Shown here piece after piece: positions 19,233-41,321 of a DNA stretch of 64,000 bases; position 1 is the first letter of the stretch, and each line of letters begins with the position of its first letter. A model generated the notes under the pieces. It was not told where the DNA came from, did no database searches, and was given only the letters and a program-made list of their open reading frames with translations. Source of the DNA: Rosistilla carotiformis (GTDB lineage: Bacteria; Planctomycetota; Planctomycetia; Pirellulales; Pirellulaceae); contig NZ_CP036348.1 of assembly GCF_007753095.1 (NCBI RefSeq), positions 1,550,001 through 1,614,000 on the forward strand, in the 5' to 3' direction. The translations under genes and the position numbers were made by a program.

Positions 19233-19591
19233 CAGGAGGGATTCCTTCAAGAGAGAGAATTTGGTGGGATAGCACCGGTGGGAAGACGAACTGTCTGCTC
19301 ATAAGATAACGGATCGACAAGGGGTTTGCTCCCCTTTTTTGGCAACCTCGGCCAAGCTTTCCCCGCCAGACTCCGGCCTTGACCCTTTGAATCGGTGCGG
19401 TGTACTTTGACAGCCCTTGAAAATGTTGGGGTCGCTGCGCAATGACCGCTTCAATTGCTAGCAGGACACCGGTTTGGCGGCTGTCGTCGGCCCGGCATAA
19501 GATATAGGTTTCGCTTCGCCTTGATCGGTGGCATCGGTTGCCCGCCGGAGAGGTTCGTTTTAAAAGCTCCAGTCACGAAAGTAGCACCATT

Positions 19592-22147
19592 ATGGCAGGC
19601 CCTCTGTCGATTTTTCGTAGTAATCAAAAGATAATGGTCGCGGCCTTGGCCGGATTGGCCATGATTGCGTTTGTCGTCCTTCCGGCGCTTCAGGTTTACT
19701 TGGATTCCAGTCGTGGCGGTGGCGGACAGAGCGAAGCTGTCGCAACCATTGGTGGCGAAAAAGTCGATATGGCGAAGATGAATCGCTATCTTCGCAACCA
19801 CCAGCTGACCACGCGTTTCCTTGCCGATGTGGCGAAGAAGGTGATGGACAAGGGAGGACGTCCCCAAGTTCCTGGGTTTGCCGTCGACCAACAGGGGAAC
19901 GTCCAACGCGTTGGCATCTCCAACCAAATGTCGCTGGACAACGCGCTGCGAACCTATCTGTTGTCGCGGAAAGCGAAGGAGATGGGCTTCGATCTCGATG
20001 ACGGTGCGATCGATCAATGGCTGCGTTTGTATGCCAACGACAAAGTCACCGAAGGCGAGATGGACGCGATCCTGTCGACATCTTCGGATAACCAAATCGG
20101 TCGCTACCAATTGGCCAGCGTGCTCAAAACCGAACTGCTAGCCAACGCGGTCGAACGCGTCGGACAGACGGGGATTGCTGCCGGAGCCCAGCCGCTGACA
20201 TCGCCCGGCGAGAGCTGGGAGCTGTTCAAGCAGATGAACCAACAAGCGACGATCGATGCCTATCCGGTTGTCGTGGCCAGCTTCACCGATCAGGTTCCCG
20301 ACGACAAACTGCCCGAAGCCGAAGTCAAAGCACTGTACGAAAAGCACAAAGATGACTTCCCCAATCCCGATTCCGCGACCCCCGGCTTCCGCCGCAATTA
20401 TTCGGCGAACGTCGAATATTTGACCGCATCGTTCGACAGTTTCCTGGAAGCGGAAAAGAAGACGATCAGCGAAGAGGACCTCCGCGCAGAATACGATCGT
20501 TTAGTCGCTCAAGGTCGTTTCAAGGAATTTGTCCTCGACGAGAAGCCTGCGGACGAGAAGCCTGCAGATGAGAAGCCTGCAGACGAGAAGCCTGCAGACG
20601 AGAAGCCTGCGGACGAGAAGCCTGCGGACGAGAAGCCTGCGGACGAAAAGCCTGCAGATAAAAAGCCTGCGGATGAAAAGCCTGCGGATGAAAAGCCTGC
20701 GGATGAAAAGCCTGCGGATGAAAAGCCTGCGGATGAAAAGCCTGCAGACGAAAAGCCTGCGGAGGAACCCAAGGGGGACGCTGGCGACGATGCCAAAGAA
20801 GAGGCGGGGGCTGCGGATCAGTCTTCGACCAGCCAACGTTCGATGTTTCGCCTCGCTGCATTCCGTCCGCAGGACGATGAAAAAGCCGAAGAAGAGCCAC
20901 CGGTAGAAGAAGAAAAACCAGCGGACGCACCGAAGGCCGAAGAGAAGAAGGACGAACCAGCCAAGGCGGATGAGAAGCCAAAGGCTGAGGAAAAACCTGC
21001 GGACGAGAAGCCAGCCGATTCGAAGCCGGAAATGAAGGCTGACGAAGCCAAGCCTGCGGAAGAGAAGAAAGACGAACCAGCCAAGACGGAAGAAAAGCCA
21101 AAGGCTGAGGAAAAACCAGCCGACGAAAAGCCCGCCGATGCGACGCCGGAAATGAAGACTGACGCAGCGGCAGAAGAATCGCCCGCTGAAGGACTGACGC
21201 CTCCCGAAGCTCCGAAAACGCGTGTTCAGACGTTTGAAGAAGTGAAGGATCAAGTCGCCAGCGAACTCGCGTTGCCAGCGGCTCGGGCTGCCATGCAGAA
21301 GGCGATGGGGCAAGCTGAAAGCGAAATGAAGCGTTACTTCGGTGCCCGCATGCTGTGGCAAGGTGACAAGGACCAAGGTAAGAAAGTGGGCGAAGCTCCC
21401 GAATTCAGTCTGAAGGACTTGGGTGCGGCTTTAGGCCTGCAATACGGCGTCACCGGCATGCAGGACCCGTTGTCGGTCGCCGACCAACCGATCGCGAGCT
21501 CGCAAACTCAAGGGATGGGGTTTGGCGGTGGCGATTCGTTTGCTAGCCTGATCTACAACGACCAATTCCCGCTCTATACCCCCAAGCGAACCGACAGCAA
21601 CCCACCGGGATCGGCTTTCGTATTCTGGAAGACCGAACAGCGTGAACCGTTCACTCCCGAGTTTGAGGAGATCGAAGCGGAAGTCAAAGATGCGTTGCGA
21701 TTGATAAAAGCACGTGAATTGGCAAAGACCGAAGCCGAAGCGTTGGCGAAGAAGTTGAACAACGCCAATGCGGAAACGATTGCGGCGGAGATCCCTGAAG
21801 CGAAACAGACCTTGGTGATCGGCGACGTGGGACCTTTCACGGCGATGCAAGGCTTCGGTTTGAGTGTTCCGGATCTGGATCGCGTTGGCCCCGATTTCAT
21901 GAAAGCCGTCTTCTCCACTTCCGAGAAAGCCTTCGGCAGCGCAGCGAATCAACCGCAGAACACGTTCTACGTGTTCCAGGTGAAGTCAACGTCGCCGGAC
22001 CTGGAAAAGCTTCGCGAGGATTTCATGCAGCCCGCTCAACGGATGCGACTGCGACAATTCGCGAACTTCCAAGCCGGTCAATTGTTCCGCGACTGGTATG
22101 CTTCACTGGAAAGCGAAATGGGCGTGACTTGGGAAAACCAAGAGTAG
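19592..22147 (+). CDS. Membrane-anchored PpiD/SurA-like protein with DEKPA repeat
   Basis: An 851-residue protein starting M-A-G-P-L-S-I-F-R-S-N-Q-K. One membrane segment lies at about 16-38, followed by a periplasmic helical SurA_N/PpiD-like domain (A-T-I-G-G-E-K-V-D-M-A-K-M near 55, continuing to about 315). Residues 316-390 are 15 tandem D-E-K-P-A pentapeptides, and a degenerate Lys/Glu/Ala/Pro-rich stretch continues to about 545. The C-terminal part resumes the PpiD pattern (Q-T-F-E-E-V-K-D-Q-V-A-S-E-L) and ends near G-V-T-W-E. It is probably a chaperone for exported proteins; a functional PPIase active site is not obvious. ATG 19592 is preferred to the frame start 54 bases upstream because it begins the membrane anchor. 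Confidence 0.75.
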   Translation: MAGPLSIFRSNQKIMVAALAGLAMIAFVVLPALQVYLDSSRGGGGQSEAVATIGGEKVDMAKMNRYLRNHQLTTRFLADVAKKVMDKGGRPQVPGFAVDQQGNVQRVGISNQMSLDNALRTYLLSRKAKEMGFDLDDGAIDQWLRLYANDKVTEGEMDAILSTSSDNQIGRYQLASVLKTELLANAVERVGQTGIAAGAQPLTSPGESWELFKQMNQQATIDAYPVVVASFTDQVPDDKLPEAEVKALYEKHKDDFPNPDSATPGFRRNYSANVEYLTASFDSFLEAEKKTISEEDLRAEYDRLVAQGRFKEFVLDEKPADEKPADEKPADEKPADEKPADEKPADEKPADEKPADKKPADEKPADEKPADEKPADEKPADEKPADEKPAEEPKGDAGDDAKEEAGAADQSSTSQRSMFRLAAFRPQDDEKAEEEPPVEEEKPADAPKAEEKKDEPAKADEKPKAEEKPADEKPADSKPEMKADEAKPAEEKKDEPAKTEEKPKAEEKPADEKPADATPEMKTDAAAEESPAEGLTPPEAPKTRVQTFEEVKDQVASELALPAARAAMQKAMGQAESEMKRYFGARMLWQGDKDQGKKVGEAPEFSLKDLGAALGLQYGVTGMQDPLSVADQPIASSQTQGMGFGGGDSFASLIYNDQFPLYTPKRTDSNPPGSAFVFWKTEQREPFTPEFEEIEAEVKDALRLIKARELAKTEAEALAKKLNNANAETIAAEIPEAKQTLVIGDVGPFTAMQGFGLSVPDLDRVGPDFMKAVFSTSEKAFGSAANQPQNTFYVFQVKSTSPDLEKLREDFMQPAQRMRLRQFANFQAGQLFRDWYASLESEMGVTWENQE
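20537..20761 (+). repeat. In-frame 15-base tandem repeat (15 copies of D-E-K-P-A)
   Basis: Fifteen uninterrupted 15-base units, with silent variation at a few positions (GAC/GAT, GAG/GAA, GCG/GCA) and one amino-acid change (D-K-K-P-A in unit 9). The first half mainly uses GAG and the second half mainly GAA, suggesting growth by two block duplications. It lies inside the PpiD-like gene and keeps the frame. Confidence 0.97.
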
Positions 22148-23429: not shown

Positions 23430-26400
23430 CTAGTTCTTTTCCAAGATTCCAGCACCGAAGGTGACTCCGCCACCGTAGGCACACATACCGAATCGCTCGC
23501 CCGATTTCATCTTCGGCAAGACTTCGCTCAGACATAGCGGGATGCTGGTCGACGACGTATTGCCGTGCTCGCGGATGTTGCTGAAGACCGACGACGAAAC
23601 GCGACTCTGGATCGCATCGATGATCCGTTGGTTCGCTTGGTGCGGGACGATCAGGTCGAGGTTATCGACGCCGTAGCCCTGCTGATCGCAAACACGCGTC
23701 AGGCTGCCGATCATCGCGCGAACCGCTTCGGCAAACACTTTACGGCCCTTCATTTTGATGAAGCCATTGTTTTGCGACGGTACTGACAGCGTGCTGCCAT
23801 CGTCGGCTCGAGCCGAGAGTTCGGGACGGTGCAGCCGCGCCTTGGATCGGCCGAAGTGATCTTCGCCGTACAACACGGTCGCGCTGCTAGCATCGCCAAA
23901 CAGGATTGCGGTGTCCAGGTCGCCCAGGTCCAACAGTGGCGAAAGGACTTCCGCGGTCACGATCAACACGCGAGCATGAGGCTTGCTTTGCAAGAAGTCG
24001 TAACCGGCTTGCAATGCGTATAGATAGCCCGAGCAGGCGGCACTGATGTCGTAGGCTTGGATCATCGCTTCGCTGGCACCGCCCGTCAATTGATGCAGCA
24101 CTTGGCATGCCATCGACGGCGTGACGAAGCTTGGCGAGGTCGTTGCACAGATCACCAGGTCGATGTCGTCGACGATCAAACCCTCGCGGTCCAGGATCTC
24201 CCAGCACGCTTGGCTGGCCATGCTCTGTGCTGTCTCGCTTCCTTGAACCCAATGACGGAACTGGATTCCGGTGCGACGCATGATGTCTTCGGGAGACATC
24301 GATTTGCCTTCGACCAGTTCTTCGTTCGTGATCAATCGGCTGCCTTGAACCGTTGCGACACCCGAGATGCCGACATCAAACGGACGTCGCTCGATCGTTT
24401 GGCGAGGAACCAACAAGCGGTTGGGATCGGTCACACGGCGACGCAGGACGGGTGTGCCTGGGTTTTCGGTGGTCACCGGTTTCGGACGCTTGTTATCGGT
24501 CGCACAACGGACGCTGGCAATCACATCGCCCACGGGAACCGTATCCCCTTCGGCCACAAAGATCTCTTCGATCGTGCCGTCGATTTGACTTGTCAGATCG
24601 AAGACGCTTTTGGTGGCTTCCAGCGATGCGACGACGTCTCCACGCGACACCTGTTGGCCCGGCTTGATATTCAGTTCGACCAGCAGAACGTTTTCGTCCG
24701 ATGGGCCCGAACCGATCGCTTCGATCTCCGCCATGCCGACTTCCAGTTCCTTCGGCGCAATCCATTCGAGGTCCATGTTCAACAGCTCGGCCGCGGTCGA
24801 CAGAACCCGTTTGAACGATGGCAGAACTTCGATTTGGTTGGCGAAGTTGCAAGGAATCAGGGTGTCGGCGCGTGTCACGCGGCGCATCGCCACGGGAACT
24901 CGAGTTTTTTCGGCGATCGTCGCAACGACTTCGCCACCGATTCCGCAGGTGTGATTGTCTTCGTGAACGACGATCAGGCGGGCTGTTTTTTCAGCCGACG
25001 CCAGGACGGTCGCTTCGTCCCAAGGGGAGAGCGAACGCAGGTCGATCACTTCGGCTTCGATCCCTGCTTGTTCCAAAGCGGTTGCCGATTTTTCGCACAG
25101 AGAAACGGTGTTTCCCCAGCCAACCAAAGTGATGTCGCGGCCGGCTCGCACTTTGCGTGCGACACCAATCGGCGTGAACTGTTTCGCCGTGTCGGGGCTT
25201 GTCGATTGGCTCGGATCGTTCAGCAATGCCTTCGGATAGAAGAAGACGCTGGGACGACCCGATTCAAACGCCGCGTTCAACATTCCTGCCGCATCGCCGG
25301 CAGTGCTGGGCATGTAGACGTCGACGCCGGGAATGTGGGCACAGACGGATTCGAACGAGTGGGAGTGGAAAGGGCCCAAGCCGGGGCGATAGCCGCCGCA
25401 GGGAACCATCACGATCACGGGCGATTCCCAAGTGCCATTGGTCCGCCAGTACATGCTGCCCAGTTCGCTGGTCAATTGGTTGTATGCCAGCGGCAGAAAG
25501 TCGGCGAACTGAATGAAGGCAACCGGACGTTGTCCCACCAGGGCGCGGCCAATCGAGTTTCCCAGGATGGTCGATTCCGACAGCGGCGCGTTGCAGACGC
25601 GTCCCGGGTAAGCGGTGCTGAGCCCACGTGTGACGCCAAAGACGTCTCCCTTGGGATCTTCGATGTCCTGGCCGTACAGGAAGACGCGGTCGTCGGTGGC
25701 CAGGCGATCTCGCAGGACCGAACGCATCGCGTCTTTCATCGTCAATTGGCCGTCCGCTTCCCGATCGCCGCGGTGTTCGCGCGACGGATGGGTCAGTTCG
25801 ACCTGCAACGGTTTCTTGGCTTCGTGGGTCGCGGAAGGTTGGGCGGCGTAGATTGCGTCGTTTTCATCGGCAGCCACTTCGGCGACGACGGTCTCGCGAA
25901 TCGCAGCGAGTTCCGCTTCGGTGATCCCACGTTCGAGCAGTTGTTGCTCAAAACGGACCAGCGGATCACGCTCGTTCTGCGCCGCTCGGATATCTTCGGT
26001 CGGTCGATAGATCGATTGATCGTCGGCGTTGGTATGGTTGCTCAGACGTTCGGTTTGCAGCAGCACCAGGGCTGGGCCGCGCGACTCACGCATCTGTTGA
26101 ACCAAGTCACCCAAGGCGGCGTCGGATGCGACGATATCGCGGCCATCGACGCGGTGGATCGGCAGGCCATAGAAGGAATCGGCATCGCCGTCGGGAAGCG
26201 AGAAGAAGGTTTGCCCACGCGTCTCGGTCGAGATTGCCCATTGGTTGTCTTGGATGACGATCAGCAGCGGAACTTGCAAGCGAACCGCCTCGGCGACCCC
26301 TTCCAAGAACTCGCCCTCTTGAGTCGATCCGTCGCCGATGCAGTAGATCGTGATGGGGGTGTGCTTTTTCTCTTTGGTCGCCGCAGCAACGCCAACCGCT

Positions 26401-26753
26401 TGCAGGGCAGCGTTTCCGACGGGCCCGCCGAGGCTAAGGATATGCAGGTCGGCATCGCTCATCTGGGCGCACATCTGGCGGCCGCGCGAGTGCGAAGTGT
26501 CGTTGCACAGCGACGCATCGAAGAATTTACGCGGCGTCACACCGCGCGCAATCATCAACGCCTTGTCGCGGTAATGCAAATGCAACCAATCGTGTTTGGT
26601 CAGATGACGCGCCAAGACTGCCGGCGCTTCGTGCCCGGCCCCCGAAACGTGAAAGAAGGACTCTCCGCGGCGGGTGAGTTCCTGCTCAACACGATCAACT
26701 TCGCGGGCCGTGAACATCGACTTGTAAAGCGACAGCAGTTGATTTCGATCCAT
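23430..26753 (-). CDS. Fusion: 2-oxoacid dehydrogenase E1-alpha/E1-beta, lipoyl domain, ketoacyl synthase III
   Basis: A 1107-residue protein with four recognisable parts. Residues 1-300: E1-alpha, with H-Y-R-D-K-A near 60 and the thiamine-diphosphate motif G-D-G-S-T-Q-E-G (140-147) to Q-D-N (170). Residues 335-660: E1-beta, with L-Y-G-Q-D-I, P-L-S-E-S and G-P-F-H-S-H-S. Residues 667-750: a lipoyl domain with the attachment turn E-A-T-K-S (Lys 715). Residues 790-1107: a FabH-like synthase, with R-T-G-I-Q-F-R-H and an intact triad Cys 907 (A-A-C-S-G), His 1038 (V-P-H-Q-A-N) and Asn 1065 (H-G-N-T-S-S). No E2 acyltransferase or E3 domain is present or nearby. Inference: a 2-oxoacid is decarboxylated, the acyl group is loaded on the lipoyl arm and passed to the synthase for condensation with malonyl-ACP. 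It stands alone between long intergenic gaps. Confidence 0.92.
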   Translation of the reverse strand: MDRNQLLSLYKSMFTAREVDRVEQELTRRGESFFHVSGAGHEAPAVLARHLTKHDWLHLHYRDKALMIARGVTPRKFFDASLCNDTSHSRGRQMCAQMSDADLHILSLGGPVGNAALQAVGVAAATKEKKHTPITIYCIGDGSTQEGEFLEGVAEAVRLQVPLLIVIQDNQWAISTETRGQTFFSLPDGDADSFYGLPIHRVDGRDIVASDAALGDLVQQMRESRGPALVLLQTERLSNHTNADDQSIYRPTEDIRAAQNERDPLVRFEQQLLERGITEAELAAIRETVVAEVAADENDAIYAAQPSATHEAKKPLQVELTHPSREHRGDREADGQLTMKDAMRSVLRDRLATDDRVFLYGQDIEDPKGDVFGVTRGLSTAYPGRVCNAPLSESTILGNSIGRALVGQRPVAFIQFADFLPLAYNQLTSELGSMYWRTNGTWESPVIVMVPCGGYRPGLGPFHSHSFESVCAHIPGVDVYMPSTAGDAAGMLNAAFESGRPSVFFYPKALLNDPSQSTSPDTAKQFTPIGVARKVRAGRDITLVGWGNTVSLCEKSATALEQAGIEAEVIDLRSLSPWDEATVLASAEKTARLIVVHEDNHTCGIGGEVVATIAEKTRVPVAMRRVTRADTLIPCNFANQIEVLPSFKRVLSTAAELLNMDLEWIAPKELEVGMAEIEAIGSGPSDENVLLVELNIKPGQQVSRGDVVASLEATKSVFDLTSQIDGTIEEIFVAEGDTVPVGDVIASVRCATDNKRPKPVTTENPGTPVLRRRVTDPNRLLVPRQTIERRPFDVGISGVATVQGSRLITNEELVEGKSMSPEDIMRRTGIQFRHWVQGSETAQSMASQACWEILDREGLIVDDIDLVICATTSPSFVTPSMACQVLHQLTGGASEAMIQAYDISAACSGYLYALQAGYDFLQSKPHARVLIVTAEVLSPLLDLGDLDTAILFGDASSATVLYGEDHFGRSKARLHRPELSARADDGSTLSVPSQNNGFIKMKGRKVFAEAVRAMIGSLTRVCDQQGYGVDNLDLIVPHQANQRIIDAIQSRVSSSVFSNIREHGNTSSTSIPLCLSEVLPKMKSGERFGMCAYGGGVTFGAGILEKN

Positions 26754-27339
26754 CGAAATATTCCGGTCGAGAGGACTGAGCTATATCGATTGTCGCGGCA
26801 AGACTCCTCCGATATTGCTATCAAAGTCGTTCAGGACGGGGCAATCAGCGGGACTGGCGATGCGGGGAAGCGGTCGCCTATAAATTTGTATCGGTTCTCG
26901 CACGCCGAACGATCATTCCTCATGAATGGATTCTCCGAGTTGCAGCGAGCCAAGCGAATGGTCGGACAAATCGGTAATTAATGCAATACAAACCTTGCCA
27001 GTTTTCAACGACATCCTGTCGCGAGCTGCCCCATACAAACGGTTCTGGGCGGTTTGCACGGCAGTGGGTCGCCAATTGCCTGCTTTTTTGTCTCTTTCCC
27101 AACCGTAGATGATTTTTTCTCGCGTCCCTACAGAAGCGATTGCTAGCACGACGGTGCTGCTTCGATTGCAAAGATACCTTATGTTCCATATCATTTGCCA
27201 AACTCACCGTCGTGCGCAACCGAAAAAGATCGCGTAGGCGGGAAGAGTGCGTACATGGTTCGCTATCAATCAGGACTCTGATATCGCAGCCCCGCTTGCT
27301 TGCTCGTTTTTTACCCTTTACCGCTGCGCGAGATGATCG
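26754..27339. other. Divergent intergenic region, no gene seen
   Basis: 586 bases between the divergent fusion gene and glycosyltransferase gene. It is more A/T-rich than its surroundings. A TATAAATT stretch at 26879-26886 lies inside the likely upstream region of the fusion gene. Short frames on both strands lack recognisable features. Both promoters should lie here. Confidence 0.45.
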
Positions 27340-28385: not shown

Positions 28386-30122
28386 TCAATTGATCTCGGG
28401 ATCTTTGTCTTTGCTGCCATCGGCGTGCAAGAAACGGAAGTCGCAGCCGAGGTTGGCCTGCGTCGTCTGTTCGAAGTACAGTTTTCCGTAACCGCGAGTG
28501 AACTTGTTCTCCGGCTGCGTCCAACCGCTGCGGCGACTGGCGAGTTCCTCGTCGCTGATCTCTAGTTCGATCTGCCGTCCGGCGACGTCCAAACGAATCA
28601 TGTCGCCATCTTGGACAAACGCTAGCGGCCCGCCGACAAATGATTCCGGTGCCACGTGCAGCACGCACGCGCCGTAACTGGTGCCGCTCATCCGCGCGTC
28701 GGAGATCCGGACCATATCGGTCACGCCCTGTTCCAGCAGATATTTTGGAATCGGCAGCATGCCCCATTCGGGAATCCCCGGAGCGCCCAAGGGACCTGCG
28801 TTTTGCAAGACGATCACATGGTTAGCGGTCAGTCCCATGGCGGGATCATGGATCCGAGCCTTCAGATCGGGGTAGTTCTTGAAGACGGCTGCCGGCCCGC
28901 GATGCTGCAACAAATGCTTCTCAGCCGCTGGCGGTTTGATCACGCAACCGTCGGGAGCGAGGTTGCCGCGAAGAACGGCTAGGCTGCTCGATTCGCTCAA
29001 CGGATTCGAACGCGGACGAATCACATCCTCGTCGTACACCTCCGCTCCTTCGATCGCTTCGCCCAGCGTCGTCCCGGCGACATTGGGGCAATCGAGATTC
29101 AGCAGGTCGCCGATCCGATGCAGCAGCCCCTGCAGCCCGCCGGCATCAAACAGATCGGCCATCACGTATTTTCCAGCGGGCCGCAAGTTGCCGACGACTG
29201 GCGTCTTCTGCGAGATCTCGTCGAAGCGTTCCAGCGTCAACGGCACCTCGGCTCGTCCAGCCAAAGCCATCAAGTGAACGATCGCGTTGGTCGATCCGCC
29301 GATCGCCATCAACGCGGTGATCGCATTGTCGAACGATTCGGGAGTCATGAACTCCGACGGTTTGATGTCCAACCAAGCGAGTTCGACGGCGCGGGATCCG
29401 GTGGCCGATGCCATCCGCGAGTGAGACGAATGTGTCGCGGGAACCGACGAGGAGCCGGGCAGACACAGCCCCATCGTTTCGGCGATCGCCGTCATCGTCG
29501 ATGCGGTTCCCATCGTCATGCAGTGGCCGGGCGATGCGGCGATGTGGTCTTCCAGTTCGCACCAGGCTTCGCACGACAGACGCCCCGCGCCGCGTTGATC
29601 CCAATATTTCCAAACGTCGCTACCGCTCCCCAGCGGTTCGCCGCGCCAACTGGTCCGCGACATCGGCCCGCCCGGCATGAAGATGCTGGGGATATCGACG
29701 CTGCGAGCTCCCATCAACATCGCCGGCGTCGTCTTGTCGCAGCCTCCCATCAAGATCACCGCGTCCAGCGGATAGGTCCGCAGCGTCTCTTCGGTCTCCA
29801 TCGCCAACAGATTGCGATAGTACATCGACGTCGGCTTCATGAACGTTTCGCTGAGTCCCATCACGGGAATCTCGACCGGAAATCCACCCGCCTGCCAAAC
29901 GCCTCGCTTGACGTCTTCGGCCCGCTGGCGGAAGTGGGCGTGGCACGAAATCAGATCGTTCCAGGTGTTCAAGATCCCGATCACCGGCTTGTCTTTAAAC
30001 TCCTCGGTTGCAAACCCGGCTTGCTTCTGACGCGACCGATGCCCGAAGGAACGCAGGTCGTCGGGGCCGAAGTAGCGGTAGCTGCGGAGTTGTTCGGGCG
30101 TCTTGCGTGGTCGCTCACTCAT
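28386..30122 (-). CDS. IlvD/Edd-family dehydratase, probably sugar-acid type
   Basis: A 578-residue dehydratase. The three Fe-S ligand cysteines are visible: Cys 60 (L-I-S-C-H), Cys 128 (G-G-C-D-K-T-T-P-A) and Cys 201 (G-H-C-M-T-M-G-T-A). The N-terminus (R-S-Y-R-Y-F-G-P-D-D-L-R-S-F-G-H-R-S-R) matches the branch that contains L-arabinonate and related aldonate dehydratases more than true dihydroxy-acid dehydratase of branched-chain amino acid synthesis. The likely reaction is dehydration of a sugar acid to a 2-keto-3-deoxy acid. No other sugar-acid catabolism genes flank it. Confidence 0.82.
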   Translation of the reverse strand: MSERPRKTPEQLRSYRYFGPDDLRSFGHRSRQKQAGFATEEFKDKPVIGILNTWNDLISCHAHFRQRAEDVKRGVWQAGGFPVEIPVMGLSETFMKPTSMYYRNLLAMETEETLRTYPLDAVILMGGCDKTTPAMLMGARSVDIPSIFMPGGPMSRTSWRGEPLGSGSDVWKYWDQRGAGRLSCEAWCELEDHIAASPGHCMTMGTASTMTAIAETMGLCLPGSSSVPATHSSHSRMASATGSRAVELAWLDIKPSEFMTPESFDNAITALMAIGGSTNAIVHLMALAGRAEVPLTLERFDEISQKTPVVGNLRPAGKYVMADLFDAGGLQGLLHRIGDLLNLDCPNVAGTTLGEAIEGAEVYDEDVIRPRSNPLSESSSLAVLRGNLAPDGCVIKPPAAEKHLLQHRGPAAVFKNYPDLKARIHDPAMGLTANHVIVLQNAGPLGAPGIPEWGMLPIPKYLLEQGVTDMVRISDARMSGTSYGACVLHVAPESFVGGPLAFVQDGDMIRLDVAGRQIELEISDEELASRRSGWTQPENKFTRGYGKLYFEQTTQANLGCDFRFLHADGSKDKDPEIN

Positions 30123-31751: not shown

Positions 31752-32558
31752 TCACCCAAACAATACCTCTTGCTGGGGCGGAGTGCCGTCGTCGGTTCGG
31801 CCTTTGAAGATACCCAGCCGTTGCAAGGCCAACAAGCTTAGGTACATCGGATTGAGGTACAGATAACGACGCCACAGTCGCGTCGGCTCTTTGACCAGAC
31901 GAAACAGCCACTCCAGCCCGGCGCGTTGCATCCATGAAGGTGCCTGCGGCAACAGGTTGGCATGAAACGCAAACGCAGCTCCCACAGCGATCAGCGGCAT
32001 CGAGATCCGATCGCGCATTTCAAACGCAAACGTTTCCTGCCGTGGGCATCCGATCCCGACGAAACACAAACTGGCACCGCTGGCGTTGATCTCGTCGGCC
32101 AGTTCGGAACACTCCTCGGGGGAGAGCGTCCGAAAACGAGAGGCTCGTGCGCCGGCGACTTTCAGTCCGGGAAACTTCTCGGCCAGCTTGTCGATCAAGA
32201 CCGCGTTCATCTCGTCGGTCCCACCGAACAGGAAGATCGATTGCTGTTGTTCGACGCACGCCTGGCACAACCGCAGCGTCAATTCGGGCCCGTAGACGCG
32301 GTCGGTGAGCCCACAGCCGTGCAACAGGTTTAGCGCCCAACGGACTGGTTGCCCATCGGGACAGACGAGATCGAATCGATTCAGTCGATAGTTCTGTTCG
32401 CGATCCAAATAGCCGGTCATCACGCCATGCACCGCCAGCGCAGTGACCGACATCGATTGCCGCTCGACCGCCGCATGCATGATCTTGGCGACGGCGGCTT
32501 CATAGTCGACCGCGTCGACATTGACGCCGATCACACTGTGTTTTCCCGAATCAATCAT
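31752..32558 (-). CDS. WecG/TagA/CpsF-family glycosyltransferase
   Basis: A 268-residue transferase of the GT26 family, which adds a (typically ManNAc-type) sugar to a polyprenyl-linked intermediate in surface polysaccharide assembly. Motifs: D-L-V-C-P-D-G-Q-P-V (about 83-92), I-F-L-F-G-G-T near 127, V-G-I-G-C-P-R-Q-E near 185 and P-S-W-M-Q-R-A-G-L-E-W-L-F-R-L near 222. Start is ATG 32558, overlapping the stop of the upstream GT4 gene by 8 bases. It is the last gene of a flippase, GT4, GT26 operon. Confidence 0.92.
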   Translation of the reverse strand: MIDSGKHSVIGVNVDAVDYEAAVAKIMHAAVERQSMSVTALAVHGVMTGYLDREQNYRLNRFDLVCPDGQPVRWALNLLHGCGLTDRVYGPELTLRLCQACVEQQQSIFLFGGTDEMNAVLIDKLAEKFPGLKVAGARASRFRTLSPEECSELADEINASGASLCFVGIGCPRQETFAFEMRDRISMPLIAVGAAFAFHANLLPQAPSWMQRAGLEWLFRLVKEPTRLWRRYLYLNPMYLSLLALQRLGIFKGRTDDGTPPQQEVLFG

Positions 32559-33765
32559 CGCATCGATCGTTTGTTGAATGGCCCATTACAAATTGGCAGG
32601 CGTCGATCAAACCGGAGGCTGCAAACGCGGGAGTTCGATCGCGAACCGAATCGCGGCAGGCCTGAGCCATAGACCCGCGAGTCGCCGCGTCGCAAGCGAG
32701 CCAGCGGTCCAAACAGCCAGCCAAACCGCTGTCGTCTCGAGGATCGTAAAGCCAGCCGTTGCGATCGTCTTGCAAAAGCGTGGTGCTCGCCTGTGCCAAC
32801 AGACTGCCGATCACTGGCAGCCCCGAATGCAAAGCTTCATTGACGACCAAGCCCCACTCGTCGGCTAGCGTTGGAAAGATCAAAAGATCGTGCGCCGGCA
32901 TCAGCGTCGGCAGTTGTTCGCTGGGCAAGTTCCCGGTGAATTCGATTCCCAAATTCGCTGGCGTCGCGACAGCACTCAACGACTCACGCAACGGTCCCTC
33001 TCCCACCATCGTCAACTGGAACGTTTGCTCCGCGTGCTGCTGCGCATAACGGACGACTTGCTCGACCATCGCCTCCACTCCTTTCCGCTGCGTCATCTGG
33101 CCGATGTACAACATCCGCGTGACGCTTGGCGAACCCGAGGACTGCCGCGGGCCGGTGTAGATGCTGTCGGGGTTGGCCGCGTAAGGAAAGTGGAACAGTC
33201 GTTTGGGATCGGCGCCGAGATCGCTTAGCACATCGAAGCAACTGGGGCCGTTGTAAGTGATCGCGTCGGCGCGGCCGATCAGCCATCGCCGAGCGGCGGC
33301 CCGCATCATCCCCCGTCCCTGTTCGGTATGCTGCGACATATACGTACACAGAATCAGCTTACTGCGCCGGTGCAAGATCCGATGCAGAGAACTGGCTAAC
33401 GAGCGAAACCCAAGCTCTAAACTGAGCACGATGTCGGGCTGCAGTCGCCGTAACTGGCGGCCGGTATCGTAGGGGACGTGAACATATAAGGTGTCGTCAA
33501 AACCGGCCGAATGTCGCCAACGGCGTTGCAGCGTAAGCGTCTTCTGCAGCGTCACGTCCAGCCCTTCCCAACGCGGCTGGAAGTGCCGGTTCGGTTCGAC
33601 ATCGGTCGACAACAGCACGTGGAAGTCGCGGATCTGTCGCGACAGCTCTCGATAGATCGGCAACTGGTAGATCGGAATGTAATGCGTCAACAAAACCACC
33701 CGCGCATCGACGACCGGAGCGTCGCAGCGCGTTGGTTTCGGATGCGATTGCAATTCCGTATTCAT
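32551..33765 (-). CDS. Glycosyltransferase family 4
   Basis: A 404-residue GT-B glycosyltransferase. Donor-site features: R-M-L-Y-I-G-Q-M-T-Q-R-K-G near 230 and F-P-T-L-A-D-E-W-G-L-V-V-N-E-A near 317 (E-x7-E). The N-terminal half has T-H-Y-I-P-I-Y-Q-L-P-I-Y, typical of the acceptor domain. It probably adds a sugar during exopolysaccharide or O-antigen-like repeat-unit synthesis. It lies 42 bases downstream of the flippase gene and overlaps the WecG gene by 8 bases, so the three are one operon. Confidence 0.9.
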   Translation of the reverse strand: MNTELQSHPKPTRCDAPVVDARVVLLTHYIPIYQLPIYRELSRQIRDFHVLLSTDVEPNRHFQPRWEGLDVTLQKTLTLQRRWRHSAGFDDTLYVHVPYDTGRQLRRLQPDIVLSLELGFRSLASSLHRILHRRSKLILCTYMSQHTEQGRGMMRAAARRWLIGRADAITYNGPSCFDVLSDLGADPKRLFHFPYAANPDSIYTGPRQSSGSPSVTRMLYIGQMTQRKGVEAMVEQVVRYAQQHAEQTFQLTMVGEGPLRESLSAVATPANLGIEFTGNLPSEQLPTLMPAHDLLIFPTLADEWGLVVNEALHSGLPVIGSLLAQASTTLLQDDRNGWLYDPRDDSGLAGCLDRWLACDAATRGSMAQACRDSVRDRTPAFAASGLIDACQFVMGHSTNDRCDD

Positions 33766-33807
33766 GATCGAAACGTCTTTCCTCTACGTTGCACCTGCAC
33801 GTTCTCC

Positions 33808-35121
33808 CTAGACCTTGTTCTGCGAATTCGCTTGCGTTTGGCGGTACATCGCGAAGAAGACGATCACCAAGCAGACGAATTGCCCGGCGGCAAGCGCCAC
33901 GGGGATGCTCCAGATTCCCATCCGCGGTTGCAATGCAAACGTCAACCCGATCAGAATCACCAACGCCACGATTCGCCCGGTGATTCCCGGCGTGGACATG
34001 CCGCGGCCGCGAAGGTACCCATCGGCTGTCATCAGCATTCCTCGCAGGCCTCCCGAAGGCAACAGATACCAGGCGAACATCACGGTGCCGGTAAACGCTT
34101 GTGAGTAAAGGATTGGCACGGCGTAAGGGATCACGAACGCCAATAGGCATCCTGTCGCGATCTGCCCCGCAAACATCAACGCGATAAAACGGGTCACTCC
34201 CGCCGCGGTCAACGGAGTGTTGGGATCGGCACCGTGCCGGAAGGAGAAGAGCGCCAACGCATTGGGGACGATGATCATCGTGCTGGCGATCGGGATCGCG
34301 CTGGTGTAGAAGCCTTGGTCGGTCAATGTTCCGAGAAACATAATTAGGAACAAGTCGGCGCGATCCAGTAGTTCGGCGGAGATTTGCGAAATCGCCAGCC
34401 CGCGATTTTCGCTCAGCGATTCGAGCACCGATTGCTGCGTCGGCCCGAACCAACTGCCTCGCATCCCGACTTGGCACAATAAAAGGCCAGCGACGCAAGA
34501 TCCGACAAAAGCCCAGGTCACGTCGCGCAGATCGTTCCATTCGACCAGCCACATGCCCAACAGAAGCAGGGGGAAAAACGCGGCCGCGGCGGCTCGCAAC
34601 GAACTGAGACGGTAGAAGTAGCCGCGTCCATGATCGACGCCTTGAACCGCCAGGCGGATGTGCTGCAGCGGAAGGGGCAATGCGACCAAGGATGCCAACG
34701 GGGCGAGGTAGCGTTTATCGACGGGCAACGCAAACCAGGCCAATAGAACACAGACCGCCGCGGTGACGATTCCTGTCGTGAGACCGTAACGCATCGCAGC
34801 ACGCCTGGCCGCGGCGTCGTCCGCCGAGGCTGGCAACTTGGCTGCCAAGCGAGCAAAGATATCAGCCGATCCCAGCAAGCCCATGTACAAAAACATTTGT
34901 GGGTAGGCAACGATCGTCGCATAAGCTCCGCGTCCCTCGGGTCCCAGCAGGCGCGCGAGCAGGATCCCTTGGATCGCGAAGAATCCAAAAGTTCCGAACG
35001 CTGCGGCGATCGCGCTGGCGAGCGAGCGAATACGCCGCTTCGAAAGAACGCTCCCATCGGGCGTCGTCGCTTCCGATTCGGGAGATTCGATCGAAGAACT
35101 GGCGGAGATATCGGACGAAAT
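33808..35121 (-). CDS. Wzx-like polysaccharide flippase, non-ATG start likely
   Basis: A polytopic membrane protein of the oligosaccharide flippase (MATE/Wzx) type with about 12 hydrophobic segments. The first ATG in frame is at 34896, but the frame upstream encodes the family's first helix and its hallmark (I-Q-G-I-L-L-A-R-L-L-G-P-E-G-R-G-A-Y), so the true start is further up. No ATG, GTG or TTG exists in that stretch. ATT at 35119-35121 with AGGAA 8 bases before it is the best candidate and gives 437 residues, the usual family length. The alternative is a sequencing error near the 5' end. It is followed by two glycosyltransferase genes. Confidence 0.75.
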   Translation of the reverse strand: MSSDISASSSIESPESEATTPDGSVLSKRRIRSLASAIAAAFGTFGFFAIQGILLARLLGPEGRGAYATIVAYPQMFLYMGLLGSADIFARLAAKLPASADDAAARRAAMRYGLTTGIVTAAVCVLLAWFALPVDKRYLAPLASLVALPLPLQHIRLAVQGVDHGRGYFYRLSSLRAAAAAFFPLLLLGMWLVEWNDLRDVTWAFVGSCVAGLLLCQVGMRGSWFGPTQQSVLESLSENRGLAISQISAELLDRADLFLIMFLGTLTDQGFYTSAIPIASTMIIVPNALALFSFRHGADPNTPLTAAGVTRFIALMFAGQIATGCLLAFVIPYAVPILYSQAFTGTVMFAWYLLPSGGLRGMLMTADGYLRGRGMSTPGITGRIVALVILIGLTFALQPRMGIWSIPVALAAGQFVCLVIVFFAMYRQTQANSQNKV

Positions 35122-35546
35122 AACGAGTGTTCCTATTCTGACGATAAAGCCGAACTATTGGGCTGGGCACTAGCTGCTGTGAGTTTACCCATAGATTGAA
35201 CCGAGAACATGGCCATAGCAACGCTAAACAGACGGTCTAACGCAGAAAAAACGGACCGCGGGCCGGGTTATTGCGGCCACTACAGCGAACGTGAGCTAGC
35301 TAACAATTTTCGCTGGGGAACATCTGGGGGGCAGGTTGCTTGTCACCCCGCCGCAGAGACTTATTGGCGACTCTCGCAGCCGCCGAGCAGTAAATTTCCA
35401 GTCCTTTCCGCTGCGTGACCTAAGTTGTCCCTACCGGTCGCGATGATTAGTGGTGTCGAGGGGAACGAAACAGTTCACCTTGGCAAACGATTCTCCTGTT
35501 CGACCGGATGGCAACATCCAATCCACCTTTCAAGGATGACACTGCG
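35122..35546. other. Divergent intergenic region, no gene seen
   Basis: 425 bases between the flippase operon and the small-protein gene. It presumably holds both promoters. I see no named element and no coding-like frame. Confidence 0.4.
35130..35134 (-). promoter_or_regulatory. Candidate ribosome-binding site for the flippase ATT start
   Basis: AGGAA on the minus strand, 8 bases upstream of the ATT codon at 35121. It is the only reasonable Shine-Dalgarno sequence in the N-terminal open stretch. Confidence 0.4.
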
Positions 35547-35924
35547 ATGGCAAAGTTCTACGTAAGCTGCGGATCTCAAGCTCTCATCATCTCGGCTCCT
35601 ACCGCAGAATTCGCTGCGATGCGATTGATGGACGAAGCGATGGCAGCTCACGCTTGGATCTACGACGACGCGGATCTCAGCGAACAAGACCGTCGCGATC
35701 ATCTGTGCCTCGAAGCGTTGTTGCACTTGAACGCGACCGTTCAAGTCAGCGAATGTGGGCTCGGCCGCAACGACGCCGGAGAGTTCGAAGTGCCAATCCT
35801 GCTGGATCAATGGCACCGCTTGATGACCGGCGTCAGCCGATTGTTTGTCGCTGCTGGGCTTGAACCGCGTCGCGTCTTGCCAGCCAACCTCGAGAACGTT
35901 TTGTATCCCAAATCGCCTCGCTAA
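35547..35924 (+). CDS. Conserved small protein of unknown function
   Basis: A 125-residue soluble acidic protein starting M-A-K-F-Y-V-S-C-G-S-Q. ATG 35547 was chosen because AAGGA lies 10 bases upstream and the 13 upstream codons look unrelated. The N-terminal half (I-S-A-P-T-A-E-F-A-A-M-R-L-M-D-E-A) suggests a small alpha/beta fold, and the C-terminal half contains W-H-R-L-M-T-G. I recognise it only as a planctomycete-type hypothetical protein. It lies between two polysaccharide operons but shows no link to them. Confidence 0.7.
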   Translation: MAKFYVSCGSQALIISAPTAEFAAMRLMDEAMAAHAWIYDDADLSEQDRRDHLCLEALLHLNATVQVSECGLGRNDAGEFEVPILLDQWHRLMTGVSRLFVAAGLEPRRVLPANLENVLYPKSPR

Positions 35925-36137
35925 TCGCTGAAGGACGCCCGCTCCCCCATTCGAGATCGAGCCGTTTGTCAGCGGACCTGCCAACACTGCGACCCAGGTG
36001 TTGGAACCGCATCGTGGCGGCTCAGTTTTTCTTGGTGGAAGCTCGGTTTTGACCTAGAGTTTCGTGTTTCGCTGGCCACCGACGTGTGAGTGGTCGGCCG
36101 CGACTTCGCAAACCTTCCGTCATTATCGATCCGATCC

Positions 36138-37544
36138 ATGCAATCGCTAACTCCCATTCGTCCCCGCCAGCGATCCATTGAATTTTTGCGATTGATCGTC
36201 GATGGGGGTGCCATCATCGGCACGCTGGCCATCGTCAAAGGTCTTTCGCCCGGCTGGTTTGACAACCAAGCGATCGTGGCTGGTCTGACAGCAATCCTGG
36301 CCTTCCTGTTGCTCGGGCATGTCACCGGTCTGTATCGCGCTGGCCTGGACATGACGGCGAATCAAGAAGTCGTTCGCGTGACGACGACGTGGGTACTGAC
36401 CATGGCGGTGATCGCCGGGTTGGCGTTTTTTGCTCGCTACGGCCAGCACTTCGCTCGTTCGGTCGTTCTCGGATGGTGCGTCATGGCACCGGTGCTGATC
36501 TGCCTGATTCGGATGGTTTGGCGAGTCGTCCAGCGGATGCTTTTGAAACAAGGGATCGGCACCCGACGCGTTGCCATCGCCGGATTGAACGATCTTGGGC
36601 TTCAGGTCTCGCGGAACATCGAACAGTCCCCCGGCCTTGGCTTTCAGTTGACGGGATTTTATGACGATCGCGATCCCGAGCGTCGTTCGGACCTTGGCCC
36701 CAACGATCCCAAGCTGTTAGGCAAGATCGACGATCTGATCGTCGCAGCTCAAAACAACGAATTCGATATCGTGATGATTTCGCTGCCGATGCGAGCGGAG
36801 GATCGAATCAAGTTCATCTTGGAAAAACTGAGCGATTCGACCGCGTCGGTCTACATCGTTCCCGACTTCTTCGTCTTCGAATTGATGCATTCGCAATGGA
36901 CCAACATGGGCGGAATCCCTGCGGTCAGCGTGTTCGAATCGCCACTGTACGGCGTCGATGGCGTCTCGAAACGGCTGGTTGATATCGCGGTCACCATCTC
37001 GGCTCTTGTCGCTGCGGCGATCCCGATGTTGATGATCGCCGCTGCGATCAAACTGACCTCCCCTGGTCCGGTCTTCTTCCGGCAACGACGTTATGGCGTC
37101 GATGGCCGCGAAATCCTGGTTTGGAAATTCCGCTCGATGACGACCTGCGACAATGGATCGGTCGTCCGCCAAGCGACCAAGGGAGATGCTCGGATCACGC
37201 CGCTCGGAGCGATCCTCCGCAAAACGTCGCTGGACGAACTGCCTCAGTTGTTCAACGTCCTCGAAGGTTCGATGTCGCTGGTCGGCCCACGGCCTCACGC
37301 ATCGGCGCACAACGAACATTATCGCGGCCAGATTCGCGGCTACATGCTGCGTCATAAGATCAAACCGGGAATCACCGGTCTGGCCCAAGTGGAAGGCTGT
37401 CGCGGCGAGACCGACACTTTGGACAAGATGCAACGCCGCGTCGACTTCGACCATCGCTACATCCGCGACTGGTCGCTGTGGCTCGATATCCGCATCCTCT
37501 TCAAGACGCTGCTGGTCGCCTGGCGACAACCCGAAGCCTATTAG
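36138..37544 (+). CDS. Polyprenyl-phosphate sugar-1-phosphate transferase (WcaJ-like)
   Basis: A 468-residue initiating transferase for exopolysaccharide repeat units. There are four to five membrane segments in the first 140 residues, a CoA-binding-like Rossmann region at about 140-265, then a re-entrant membrane helix (V-D-I-A-V-T-I-S-A-L-V) and the catalytic part: S-P-G-P-V-F-F-R-Q-R-R-Y-G, W-K-F-R-S-M, T-S-L-D-E-L-P-Q-L-F-N-V, M-S-L-V-G-P-R-P and K-P-G-I-T-G-L-A-Q-V. It attaches the first sugar phosphate to the lipid carrier. ATG 36138 was preferred over the GTG 48 bases upstream. It probably works with the flippase, GT4 and GT26 genes upstream. Confidence 0.93.
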   Translation: MQSLTPIRPRQRSIEFLRLIVDGGAIIGTLAIVKGLSPGWFDNQAIVAGLTAILAFLLLGHVTGLYRAGLDMTANQEVVRVTTTWVLTMAVIAGLAFFARYGQHFARSVVLGWCVMAPVLICLIRMVWRVVQRMLLKQGIGTRRVAIAGLNDLGLQVSRNIEQSPGLGFQLTGFYDDRDPERRSDLGPNDPKLLGKIDDLIVAAQNNEFDIVMISLPMRAEDRIKFILEKLSDSTASVYIVPDFFVFELMHSQWTNMGGIPAVSVFESPLYGVDGVSKRLVDIAVTISALVAAAIPMLMIAAAIKLTSPGPVFFRQRRYGVDGREILVWKFRSMTTCDNGSVVRQATKGDARITPLGAILRKTSLDELPQLFNVLEGSMSLVGPRPHASAHNEHYRGQIRGYMLRHKIKPGITGLAQVEGCRGETDTLDKMQRRVDFDHRYIRDWSLWLDIRILFKTLLVAWRQPEAY

Positions 37545-39614: not shown

Positions 39615-41321
39615 ATGTTAAAAGCGGAGTCCAATCACAACGGAGCGGCGGAGTCGCGTCGTCCGATGGCTAACCTGTCGATCGGGGAATACCTGATCCG
39701 GCGGCTTAGCGATTACGGAATCGAGCATCTCTTTGGGATCCCCGGCGACTACGTCCTGTCGTTCTACAGCATGCTGGAACAGAGTCGCTTGAAGGTGATC
39801 GGCTGCACGCGAGAGGACTGCGCCGGATACGCCGCCGATGCGTACGCGCGACTTCACGGGATGGGCGCTGTCTGCGTCACCTATTCGGTCGGCGGGCTGA
39901 GCGTCTGCAACAGTATCGCCGGTGCGTATGCGGAAAAGTCGCCGGTCGTTGTGATCTCCGGCGCGCCGGGGATGAACGAGCGGAAGAACAATCCGCTGCT
40001 GCACCACAAGGTCCGCGACTTCCGCACCCAATTGGAAGTCTTCCAAAAGGTGACGATCGATGCGGTGGAGTTGACCGATCCGCTAACCGCCTTTGCCGAT
40101 ATCGATCGGGCGCTCGATGCCGCCGACCGATTCAAGCGTCCGGTCTATATCGAACTGCCGCGCGACATGGTCCACGCCGTCCCGCCGATCACGCATTCGT
40201 TCCGCCAGCCGACGTGGGAGCCCGACGTCAAAGCGATCGACGAAGCCGCCGCCGAAACGGCGCAGCGGATCGCTGCCGCGGAGCGTCCCGTGATCGTCGC
40301 CGGTGTCGAACTGCATCGCTTCGGATTGCAGAACCAATTGGTCGAGTTGGCGGAAAGGACTCAGATCCCGATCGCCACGACGATCCTTGGCAAAAGTGTG
40401 ATCAGCGAACACCATCCGTTGTTTGTCGGATTGTACGAAGGGGCAATCGGCCGCAACGAAGTGACCGAGTTTGTCGAACAGAGCGATCTGATCCTGCTGT
40501 TGGGCACCTTCATGACCGACATCAATCTTGGCATCTACACCGCCAATCTCGATCTCGACAAATGTGTCTACGCGACCAGCGAAGCGTTGCAGATCTCGCA
40601 TCACCATTTTCATAACGTCGCGTTGGGCGAGTTCCTCGACCGGCTGAACTCCTTGGACCTGAAGCCGACGACGCGAACGATTCCCGATGCGATCACCTTC
40701 CATCGAGACCGCGAACCGTTTGAGATCGAACCAACGGCACCGCTGCGGATCAGCCGGTTGATGTCGCGGCTGAACACCTGCTTGGATCTCGATACCGTTG
40801 TGATCGCCGACGTCGGAGACGCACTTTTTGCGGCGACCGAATTGGTGACTCACGATCGCGGCGAATTCCTCAGTCCCGCCTATTACACCTCGATGGGCTT
40901 CAGCGTTCCGGCGGCAGTCGGTGCCGCGGCGGCGAGGCCCGACCATCGCGTGGTCGTATTGGTTGGCGACGGCGCGTTTCAGATGACCGGATGCGAATTG
41001 TCGACCTTGGTCCGCAATGGGTGCAGCCCGATCGTGATCGTCCTGGACAACCACGGTTATGGGACCGAACGCTATCTGCAAGCGGGCGACTGGGAATATA
41101 ACGAGATCCAGCCATGGGCTTATCACAAGATGCCCGAGCTTCTCGGTGGCGGAAAGGGATTTTTAGTCGACACCGAAGCGGAATTCGACGCCGCACTTTC
41201 GTCGGCGTGGGACGACCGGTCTCAGCCGACGATCATCCAAGCTCGGCTAGTGGAAAACGACGCCAGCGAAACGCTGAAACGTTTGGGCGAGCGGATGGGC
41301 GAGAAGGTCGCTGGCCGCTGA
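39615..41321 (+). CDS. ThDP-dependent 2-oxoacid decarboxylase (pyruvate/indolepyruvate type)
   Basis: A 568-residue non-oxidative decarboxylase. The catalytic Glu is in T-R-E-D-C-A-G-Y-A-A-D (Glu 67), and the His-His pair characteristic of pyruvate, indolepyruvate and phenylpyruvate decarboxylases is at L-L-H-H-K-V-R-D (130-131). The ThDP/Mg motif runs from V-G-D-G-A-F-Q-M to L-D-N-H-G-Y near 455-485. It converts a 2-oxoacid to an aldehyde and CO2; the substrate cannot be read from the sequence. Two starts are possible, ATG 39615 (used) or 39666. It is divergent from the deoA-cdd operon with a roughly 200-base shared upstream region. Confidence 0.88.
   Translation: MLKAESNHNGAAESRRPMANLSIGEYLIRRLSDYGIEHLFGIPGDYVLSFYSMLEQSRLKVIGCTREDCAGYAADAYARLHGMGAVCVTYSVGGLSVCNSIAGAYAEKSPVVVISGAPGMNERKNNPLLHHKVRDFRTQLEVFQKVTIDAVELTDPLTAFADIDRALDAADRFKRPVYIELPRDMVHAVPPITHSFRQPTWEPDVKAIDEAAAETAQRIAAAERPVIVAGVELHRFGLQNQLVELAERTQIPIATTILGKSVISEHHPLFVGLYEGAIGRNEVTEFVEQSDLILLLGTFMTDINLGIYTANLDLDKCVYATSEALQISHHHFHNVALGEFLDRLNSLDLKPTTRTIPDAITFHRDREPFEIEPTAPLRISRLMSRLNTCLDLDTVVIADVGDALFAATELVTHDRGEFLSPAYYTSMGFSVPAAVGAAAARPDHRVVVLVGDGAFQMTGCELSTLVRNGCSPIVIVLDNHGYGTERYLQAGDWEYNEIQPWAYHKMPELLGGGKGFLVDTEAEFDAALSSAWDDRSQPTIIQARLVENDASETLKRLGERMGEKVAGR

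Follow-up and report, generated by a model that had tools for sequence, protein, structure and literature searches.

The planctomycete Rosistilla carotiformis (Pirellulaceae) carries, within the 64,000-nucleotide stretch of its genome that we analyzed (the window; contig NZ_CP036348.1, positions 1,550,001 to 1,614,000), a gene that joins parts of a 2-oxo acid dehydrogenase to a fatty acid synthesis enzyme in one reading frame. ORF calling and translation placed this gene, stop included, at positions 23430..26753 of the window on the minus strand, as an unbroken open reading frame (ORF) of 1107 aa with an ATG start. A first-pass annotation, made from the letters alone, had read the frame as E1-alpha, E1-beta, a lipoyl domain and a beta-ketoacyl-acyl carrier protein synthase III (KAS III; acyl carrier protein, ACP), in that order, and Pfam bears this out with six families in the predicted sequence, each above its gathering score. 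On the minus strand, the thiamine diphosphate (ThDP)-binding E1-alpha part (E1_dh, PF00676, residues 10-299) lies at 25857..26726, the pyrimidine-binding part of E1-beta with Glu393 and His463 (Transket_pyr, PF02779, residues 337-512) at 25218..25745, the E1-beta C-terminal domain (Transketolase_C, PF02780, residues 530-636) at 24846..25166, and the lipoyl domain (Biotin_lipoyl, PF00364, residues 685-747) at 24513..24701. A linker (residues 748-793, 24375..24512) leads to the KAS III domain (residues 794-1105, 23439..24374), in which ACP_syn_III covers residues 901-965 and ACP_syn_III_C residues 1022-1105.

The catalytic residues that the first-pass annotation had picked out, namely the ThDP motif, the lipoyl Lys715 and a Cys907/His1038/Asn1065 triad, are conserved across an alignment of 106 fusion loci (the window protein included; 92 distinct proteins, some genes being represented from two collections), which was also thinned to 61 fusions at 80% identity (A2). 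Lys715 (codon 24609-24611), Cys907 (24033-24035) and His1038 (23640-23642) are identical in 106/106 fusions, and Asn1065 (23559-23561) is present in 105, the remaining row being gapped there. Glu393 and His463, which we take to be catalytic positions of the E1 family, are as invariant as His240 (106/106). Within the ThDP motif, GDG(140-142)...N170 (26244..26336), G140, G142 and N170 are kept in 105 of the 106 fusions (one row is gapped); at position 141, 99 rows have D, 6 have E and one has a gap. The lipoyl motif reads EATKS in the window protein and EADKA in many relatives, and the residue preceding the lysine is never Met, the residue that stands there in the biotin motif. The protein hence combines an E1 of the alpha/beta type (E1_dh, Transket_pyr, Transketolase_C and the ThDP motif), the conserved lysine of a lipoyl domain of 2-oxo acid dehydrogenase complexes (lipoylation itself is predicted) and a KAS III defined by thiolase-fold ACP_syn_III domains with a Cys-His-Asn triad. 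All six families were found in 22/22 members of a further alignment (A1); these members matched 14 Pfam families in all, none of them the E2 acyltransferase catalytic domain (PF00198). The KAS III part scored 223.6 bits against the NCBIfam fabH model TIGR00747, under its cut-off of 292.1, and 259.8 against the broader PRK09352 (‘beta-ketoacyl-ACP synthase 3’) model, above the cut-off of 249.

AlphaFold2, run on A2 (61 sequences), gave a mean predicted local distance difference test score (pLDDT) of 91.2 and a predicted template modeling score of 0.71, with pLDDT below 50 only at residues 778-788, in the linker ahead of KAS III. Among the top 50 Foldseek hits in the PDB are chains of E1-beta and of branched-chain E1, along with transketolase, FabH and enzymes of the SucA type. 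The E1 half resembles the E1 of branched-chain 2-oxo acid dehydrogenase (BCKDH; Thermus thermophilus 1um9, human 1dtw) in E1-alpha/E1-beta sequence and fold, in the ThDP motif and in the conserved Glu/His positions, but differs in that alpha and beta are joined and carry the lipoyl domain on the same chain, without an E2 acyltransferase or E3-binding domain. The C-terminal half shares with FabH/KAS III (E. coli, S. aureus and A. aeolicus structures) the fold, the Cys-His-Asn triad and the Asn247/Arg249 positions, whereas it falls below the TIGR00747 cut-off, lacks Trp32, Arg151 and Thr28, mostly has Thr at the Phe87 position and sits behind a lipoyl domain. Since both E1 (alpha2beta2) and FabH (a dimer) are twofold symmetric, a homodimer of the fusion could satisfy the symmetry of both halves.

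Other genomes carry the same architecture at the loci aligned above, although the first-pass annotation had supposed it to be specific to planctomycetes. Among the best 80 of 587 relatives in a genome-contig scan, which is a sample and not a census, at least eight phyla carry the fusion architecture: Planctomycetota (34), Spirochaetota (21), Kiritimatiellota (11), Verrucomicrobiota (6), Lentisphaerota (3), Pseudomonadota (3, Devosia), Cyanobacteriota (1) and Sumerlaeota (1). Most of these 80 loci are metagenome bins, and the lone odd matches (Xenococcus, Sumerlaeota) could be mis-binned; the records of Pontiellaceae B12219, Devosia insulae DS-56 and Planctomycetales bacterium 10988 are not marked as metagenome-assembled genomes. 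In a hand tally of 199 genomes of the same family, 48 had the fusion, 42 of them at full length, while in the other 6 it was partial or fragmented; two other genomes of the same genus have intact frames that are 96% identical. The 106 aligned fusions were chosen as single frames and therefore cannot test frame splitting. Pieces were seen in G406 (L175:861-4330), where the fusion appears as two overlapping frames, the E1-beta part being interrupted around residue 620-635, apparently by a frameshift or assembly error, and in G503 and G475, where they are spread over two contigs each. Of 392 genomes drawn evenly from the phylum, 50 matched at 1e-100, but the full architecture was confined to the R. 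carotiformis genome and four genomes of a distant family (f67), the alignment reaching residue 765 at most in the other 45; in the class of f67 (397 genomes) there were 6 matches at 1e-140, all within f67. Outside the Planctomycetota, 12/392 genomes from the phylum of a spirochaete member matched at 1e-200, and 37/43 genomes from the order of Pontiellaceae B12219 were positive (32 full length, 5 partial). On plasmids, 246 records match and none spans 80% of the protein in one place. The fusion architecture is certainly not an artefact.

In a tree of the E1 part (45 rows; a quick method without bootstrap), 33 sampled fusions fall on one side of a branch with a Shimodaira-Hasegawa-like approximate likelihood ratio test (SH-aLRT) value of 100, the other rows being 5 E1-E2 and 7 E1-only proteins. 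Pairwise distances for E1-alpha, E1-beta, lipoyl domain and KAS III across 61 fusions are correlated (r 0.55-0.76, permutation maximum 0.20; E1-beta vs KAS III, r 0.73). Because the E1 parts form a single lineage and the domain distances are correlated, the four parts have largely been inherited together. An ordinary branched-chain or pyruvate E1 accidentally fused to an inactive or unrelated KAS III, with separate E2 and E3 serving the arm, would agree with the two separate E2 genes of the R. carotiformis genome and with an E2 in all 30 fusion-bearing genomes tested, but it is highly improbable given the correlated evolution of E1-beta and KAS III, the spread over at least eight phyla (best 80 of 587 relatives) and a KAS III triad that is intact in 105/106 fusions and gapped at Asn in the other row. 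A close counterpart of the fusion was found in f50 planctomycetes, where L012, L014 and L016 (three of seven proteins examined, 3/3 positive in the domain test) encode E1-alpha, E1-beta, lipoyl and 2-oxoacid_dh domains in single frames of 1121-1194 aa and, on their domains, are E1-E2 all-in-one dehydrogenases. Their E1-lipoyl chassis, likewise in one frame, is 41-43% identical to that of the window protein across the E1 part, and they differ in having an E2 acyltransferase domain at the place of its KAS III; since they carry E2 there on the same chassis, KAS III occupies the E2 catalytic position.

The coenzyme A (CoA) contacts of the KAS III site were then compared with those of FabH. In E. 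coli FabH, Thr28 holds the adenine of CoA, Trp32 and Arg151 sandwich it, and Arg36 and two Asn hold the pantetheine, according to the available portion of PMC4606726. Our comparison set of standalone FabHs (n=31) consisted of a single sequence for each of 30 fusion-bearing genomes, plus that of E. coli. The adenine contacts are common in this set (Thr28 23/31, Trp32 31/31, Arg151 25/31) and absent from the fusions, at 0/106 for each of the three and 0/61 for each after thinning, related fusion sequences being non-independent observations; in the window protein the three positions are Met819, Asp823 and Leu946. The Asn247 and Arg249 positions, the latter of which we take to be the ACP-docking residue, are kept in 106/106 fusions, and Arg36 in 96/106. 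Phe87 of FabH lines the acyl pocket; its position is Thr in 101/106 fusions (standalone FabHs: Phe 15/31, Thr 5/31), which is compatible with a bulkier acyl group. The residue pattern fits a site that would no longer need CoA and would still receive carrier-bound pantetheine. Position 28 itself is Trp in spirochaete and Kiritimatiellota fusions (e.g., L102, L133) and mostly Met in Pirellulaceae, which may represent two types of acyl-donor entrance.

Branched fatty acids usually start from an acyl-CoA that is made by a three-enzyme dehydrogenase complex and taken up by FabH. The fusion protein is probably a 2-oxo acid dehydrogenase in which a decarboxylating ketoacyl synthase has taken the place of the acyl-CoA-forming step of E2. 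Using ThDP, the E1 half would decarboxylate a 2-oxo acid, for which a branched compound, for instance 2-oxoisovalerate, is the likeliest choice, and reductively acylate the lipoyl arm on Lys715. The arm would then swing to the fused KAS III, where we infer that dihydrolipoamide passes its acyl group on to Cys907 without CoA. Malonyl-ACP would dock, be decarboxylated with His1038 and Asn1065 and attack to give a 3-oxoacyl-ACP, which would enter type II fatty acid synthesis, and a separate lipoamide dehydrogenase would re-oxidize the dihydrolipoyl arm. The net reaction would be 2-oxo acid + malonyl-ACP + NAD+ -> 3-oxoacyl-ACP + 2 CO2 + NADH. All 30 fusion-bearing genomes tested have a lipoamide dehydrogenase above cut-off and a lipoyl synthase (above cut-off in 28); both are common genes and their presence is only compatible with such a scheme. 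The first-pass annotation had proposed this conversion of a 2-oxo acid and malonyl-ACP to beta-ketoacyl-ACP, and its logic is supported by the E2/KAS III swap, the loss of the CoA-adenine contacts and the retained Arg249 position; the branched substrates it named are plausible. We give somewhat better than even weight to the broader view that this is a CoA-free start of fatty acid synthesis on one co-inherited polypeptide, found in at least eight phyla (best 80 of 587 relatives), in which the lipoamide-bound acyl group would go straight to a ketosynthase Cys.

Several observations weigh against this reading, the first of them at the active site. The second pantetheine contact, Asn210, is present in 0/106 fusions, but also in no more than 1/31 standalone FabHs. 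A KAS III-like protein of the same genome (L003) likewise lacks Trp32 (by eye), and loss of Trp32 therefore marks a non-FabH site and not by itself a lipoyl donor. Trp occupies position 28 in 38/106 fusions (24/61 thinned), spirochaete and Kiritimatiellota rows included, and, one helical turn from position 32, it might stack on the adenine instead. The E3-binding (peripheral-subunit-binding) domain is not among the 14 families in the 22 A1 members. A Trp28 that still serves CoA would suit a KAS III acting as an acyltransferase, one that loads the lipoyl-bound acyl group onto ACP (or CoA) without condensation, and FabH-type enzymes do have weak transacylase activity. Lipoyl-to-carrier transfer of this kind is also suggested by the Streptomyces megasynthase L178 described below, with its lipoyl, E2-like and PP-binding domains in series. 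The His and Asn of KAS III are needed for malonyl decarboxylation, however. If the domain were a transacylase alone, some lineages should have lost these residues, whereas His1038 is kept in 106/106 and Asn1065 in 105/106 plus one gap; this alternative is accordingly unlikely.

Also to be counted against a CoA-free start of fatty acid synthesis is the standalone FabH present in 30/30 fusion-bearing genomes tested (R. carotiformis has one); because of it, the fusion is unneeded for ordinary initiation, and the idea that it replaces FabH was rejected. The same finding speaks for a special metabolite or lipid as product and for a dedicated acceptor in place of the malonyl-ACP used in bulk fatty acid synthesis, which might be malonyl-CoA, a different ACP or some amine or oxygen nucleophile. 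So do the straight-chain major acids of Stieleria, another member of the Pirellulaceae (as far as the available part of PMC12254169 reports; fusion status of Stieleria not established), the use of another acceptor by the KAS III relative PqsBC (available part of PMC4807248), and the locus L123 (3981-13366), where the fusion adjoins a TauD dioxygenase, an AMP-binding ligase, a PP-binding protein, an LPG_synthase_C protein and an E2-like acyltransferase without a lipoyl match, a possible special-lipid or aminoacyl-lipid cluster. No dedicated neighbor family is common across phyla among the 80 loci and the window, though, and the Arg249 position is kept in every fusion, so that we regard a dedicated acceptor as improbable.

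The identity of the 2-oxo acid bears on the preferred reading, in which 3-oxoacyl-ACP would be formed from it. E1-alpha scored higher against branched-chain E1 (Thermus 144 bits, human BCKDH 105) than against pyruvate E1 (bacterial 89, human 62), and its best PDB sequence match is the alpha chain of T. thermophilus E1 (1um9, an entry titled branched-chain). The E1-beta scores do not separate the two (branched-chain 188 and 184, pyruvate 188 and 181), which is a further point on the other side. Even iso acids start from isobutyryl, i.e., from 2-oxoisovalerate. The major acids of Pontiella include i-C12:0, i-C14:0 and i-C18:0, in one species also i-C16:0, and Kiritimatiella has i-C14:0 and i-C18:0, although straight C18:0 is the most abundant acid of Pontiella (all from the accessible part of PMC7356697), which, like the Stieleria profile, does not speak for branched products. 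Oceanispirochaeta has iso-C13:0 and iso-C15:0 (PMC11129491, available part) and Gimesia, of another family, straight-chain acids plus one unresolved component (PMC7716864, available part), carriage of the fusion being established for neither. Branched 2-oxo acids are favored because of the fusion-rich order of Pontiellaceae B12219 together with the even iso-fatty acids of Pontiella, and we put their being the substrate at about an even chance; within the Pirellulaceae, to which the window belongs, the protein may yield only a minor product or one without branching.

The fusion gene looks like a single-gene unit: in the ~0.6 kb upstream and ~1.3 kb downstream the tested ORFs had no Pfam match, and the gap ORFs tested at 22.2-23.4 kb and 26.9-27.4 kb matched zero Pfam families. 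A plus-strand ORF of 974 aa (24057-26981) overlaps it. Upstream, on the minus strand, a dehydratase of the IlvD/EDD family (28386-30122) was considered as a supplier of 2-oxoisovalerate and rejected, which again counts against a branched substrate; it is arabinonate-dehydratase-like and not IlvD (L-arabinonate dehydratase model 887.4, cut-off 882; ilvD model 446.9, cut-off 618.15), and only one distant relative of it stands beside another fusion (L142, 29% identity). Elsewhere in the window are an 869-aa protein (19538-22147, plus strand) with a SurA-like N-terminus above cut-off and a peptidyl-prolyl isomerase-like end and extensin-like stretch, both below cut-off; polysaccharide-type genes at 31752-37544 (WecG/TagA transferase, group 1 glycosyltransferase, Bac_transf sugar transferase); and a ThDP enzyme (39615-41321, plus strand) nearest to indolepyruvate/phenylpyruvate decarboxylase, with a score below that cut-off. 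The genome (7.44 Mb, one contig) holds one copy of the fusion, which is one of four E1_dh matches; the second is a 987-aa frame, SucA-like by eye, and the remaining two are weak (28.3 and 20.3 bits, frames of ~690 aa). Its two E2 genes lie elsewhere, one of them adjoining a 913-aa frame that is AceE-like by eye. Across the 199 family genomes, 48 have the fusion, 36 another E1-alpha/beta match and 2 both (expected 8.7, hypergeometric 0.0018), but we gave no weight to a replacement of the ordinary alpha/beta E1 by the fusion, as kinship is uncorrected in this count and separate-gene E1s could be missed.

Neighbors were clustered from the ORFs of the 80 loci and the window (flanks of up to 10 kb, often cut by contig ends). 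The first-pass annotation had also entertained a polyketide or signal-molecule role; no biosynthetic neighbor family is common across phyla in this set, L123 being the one suggestive locus, and such a general link is not upheld. A conserved operon partner was likewise rejected, neighbors being shared lineage-wise only: an aconitase is divergent upstream in 17/21 spirochaete loci, and a PtsP-like neighbor occurs in 12 Kiritimatiellota/Verrucomicrobiota loci. For 17 of the 21 spirochaete loci at least 800 bp of downstream sequence is available, and in 9 of these 17 a same-strand short-chain dehydrogenase/reductase (SDR) follows at a distance of 3-997 bp; a weak SDR match in L129, upstream and on the opposite strand, was left out of the count. 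Three of these SDRs were scanned, with mycolate reductase and 3-hydroxybutyrate dehydrogenase as best models, followed by assorted SDR models and, lower, FabG, all far below cut-off, and the spirochaete SDR could be a 3-oxoacyl reductase.

Two known or apparent systems come close to the proposed chemistry. On Streptomyces linear plasmids (L178:8929-20407, NZ_CP109590.1; L179:8929-20196, NZ_CP061282.1), an E1-alpha/beta gene directly precedes a megasynthase whose first domains are lipoyl and E2-like, followed in L178 by PP-binding (444-507) and ketosynthase; this start resembles a loading module supplied by a 2-oxo acid. Judged by its domains, the system is like the fusion in that a lipoyl arm apparently hands 2-oxo acid carbon on to a carrier protein with no free acyl-CoA involved, and differs in having separate proteins, a retained E2-like transferase and a multimodular assembly line. 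The actinobacterial OdhA, a two-in-one 2-oxoglutarate dehydrogenase, likewise unites two dehydrogenase steps in one chain, but these are decarboxylation and succinyl transfer, and a ketosynthase is unmentioned in the available portion of its description (PMC10415282). Our search of the open-licence literature, with subscription journals and preprints outside its scope, found no published description of the fusion itself.

The fusion joins the dehydrogenase and FabH machines at the very step that CoA normally bridges, and free acyl-CoA would be bypassed. If the proposed reaction holds, it would offer engineers a single-gene starter-unit module. For the organisms themselves, it would open a second route into type II fatty acid synthesis, one independent of CoA, and directly connect valine, leucine and isoleucine metabolism with membrane lipids, and it could account for the even iso-fatty acids of Kiritimatiellota.

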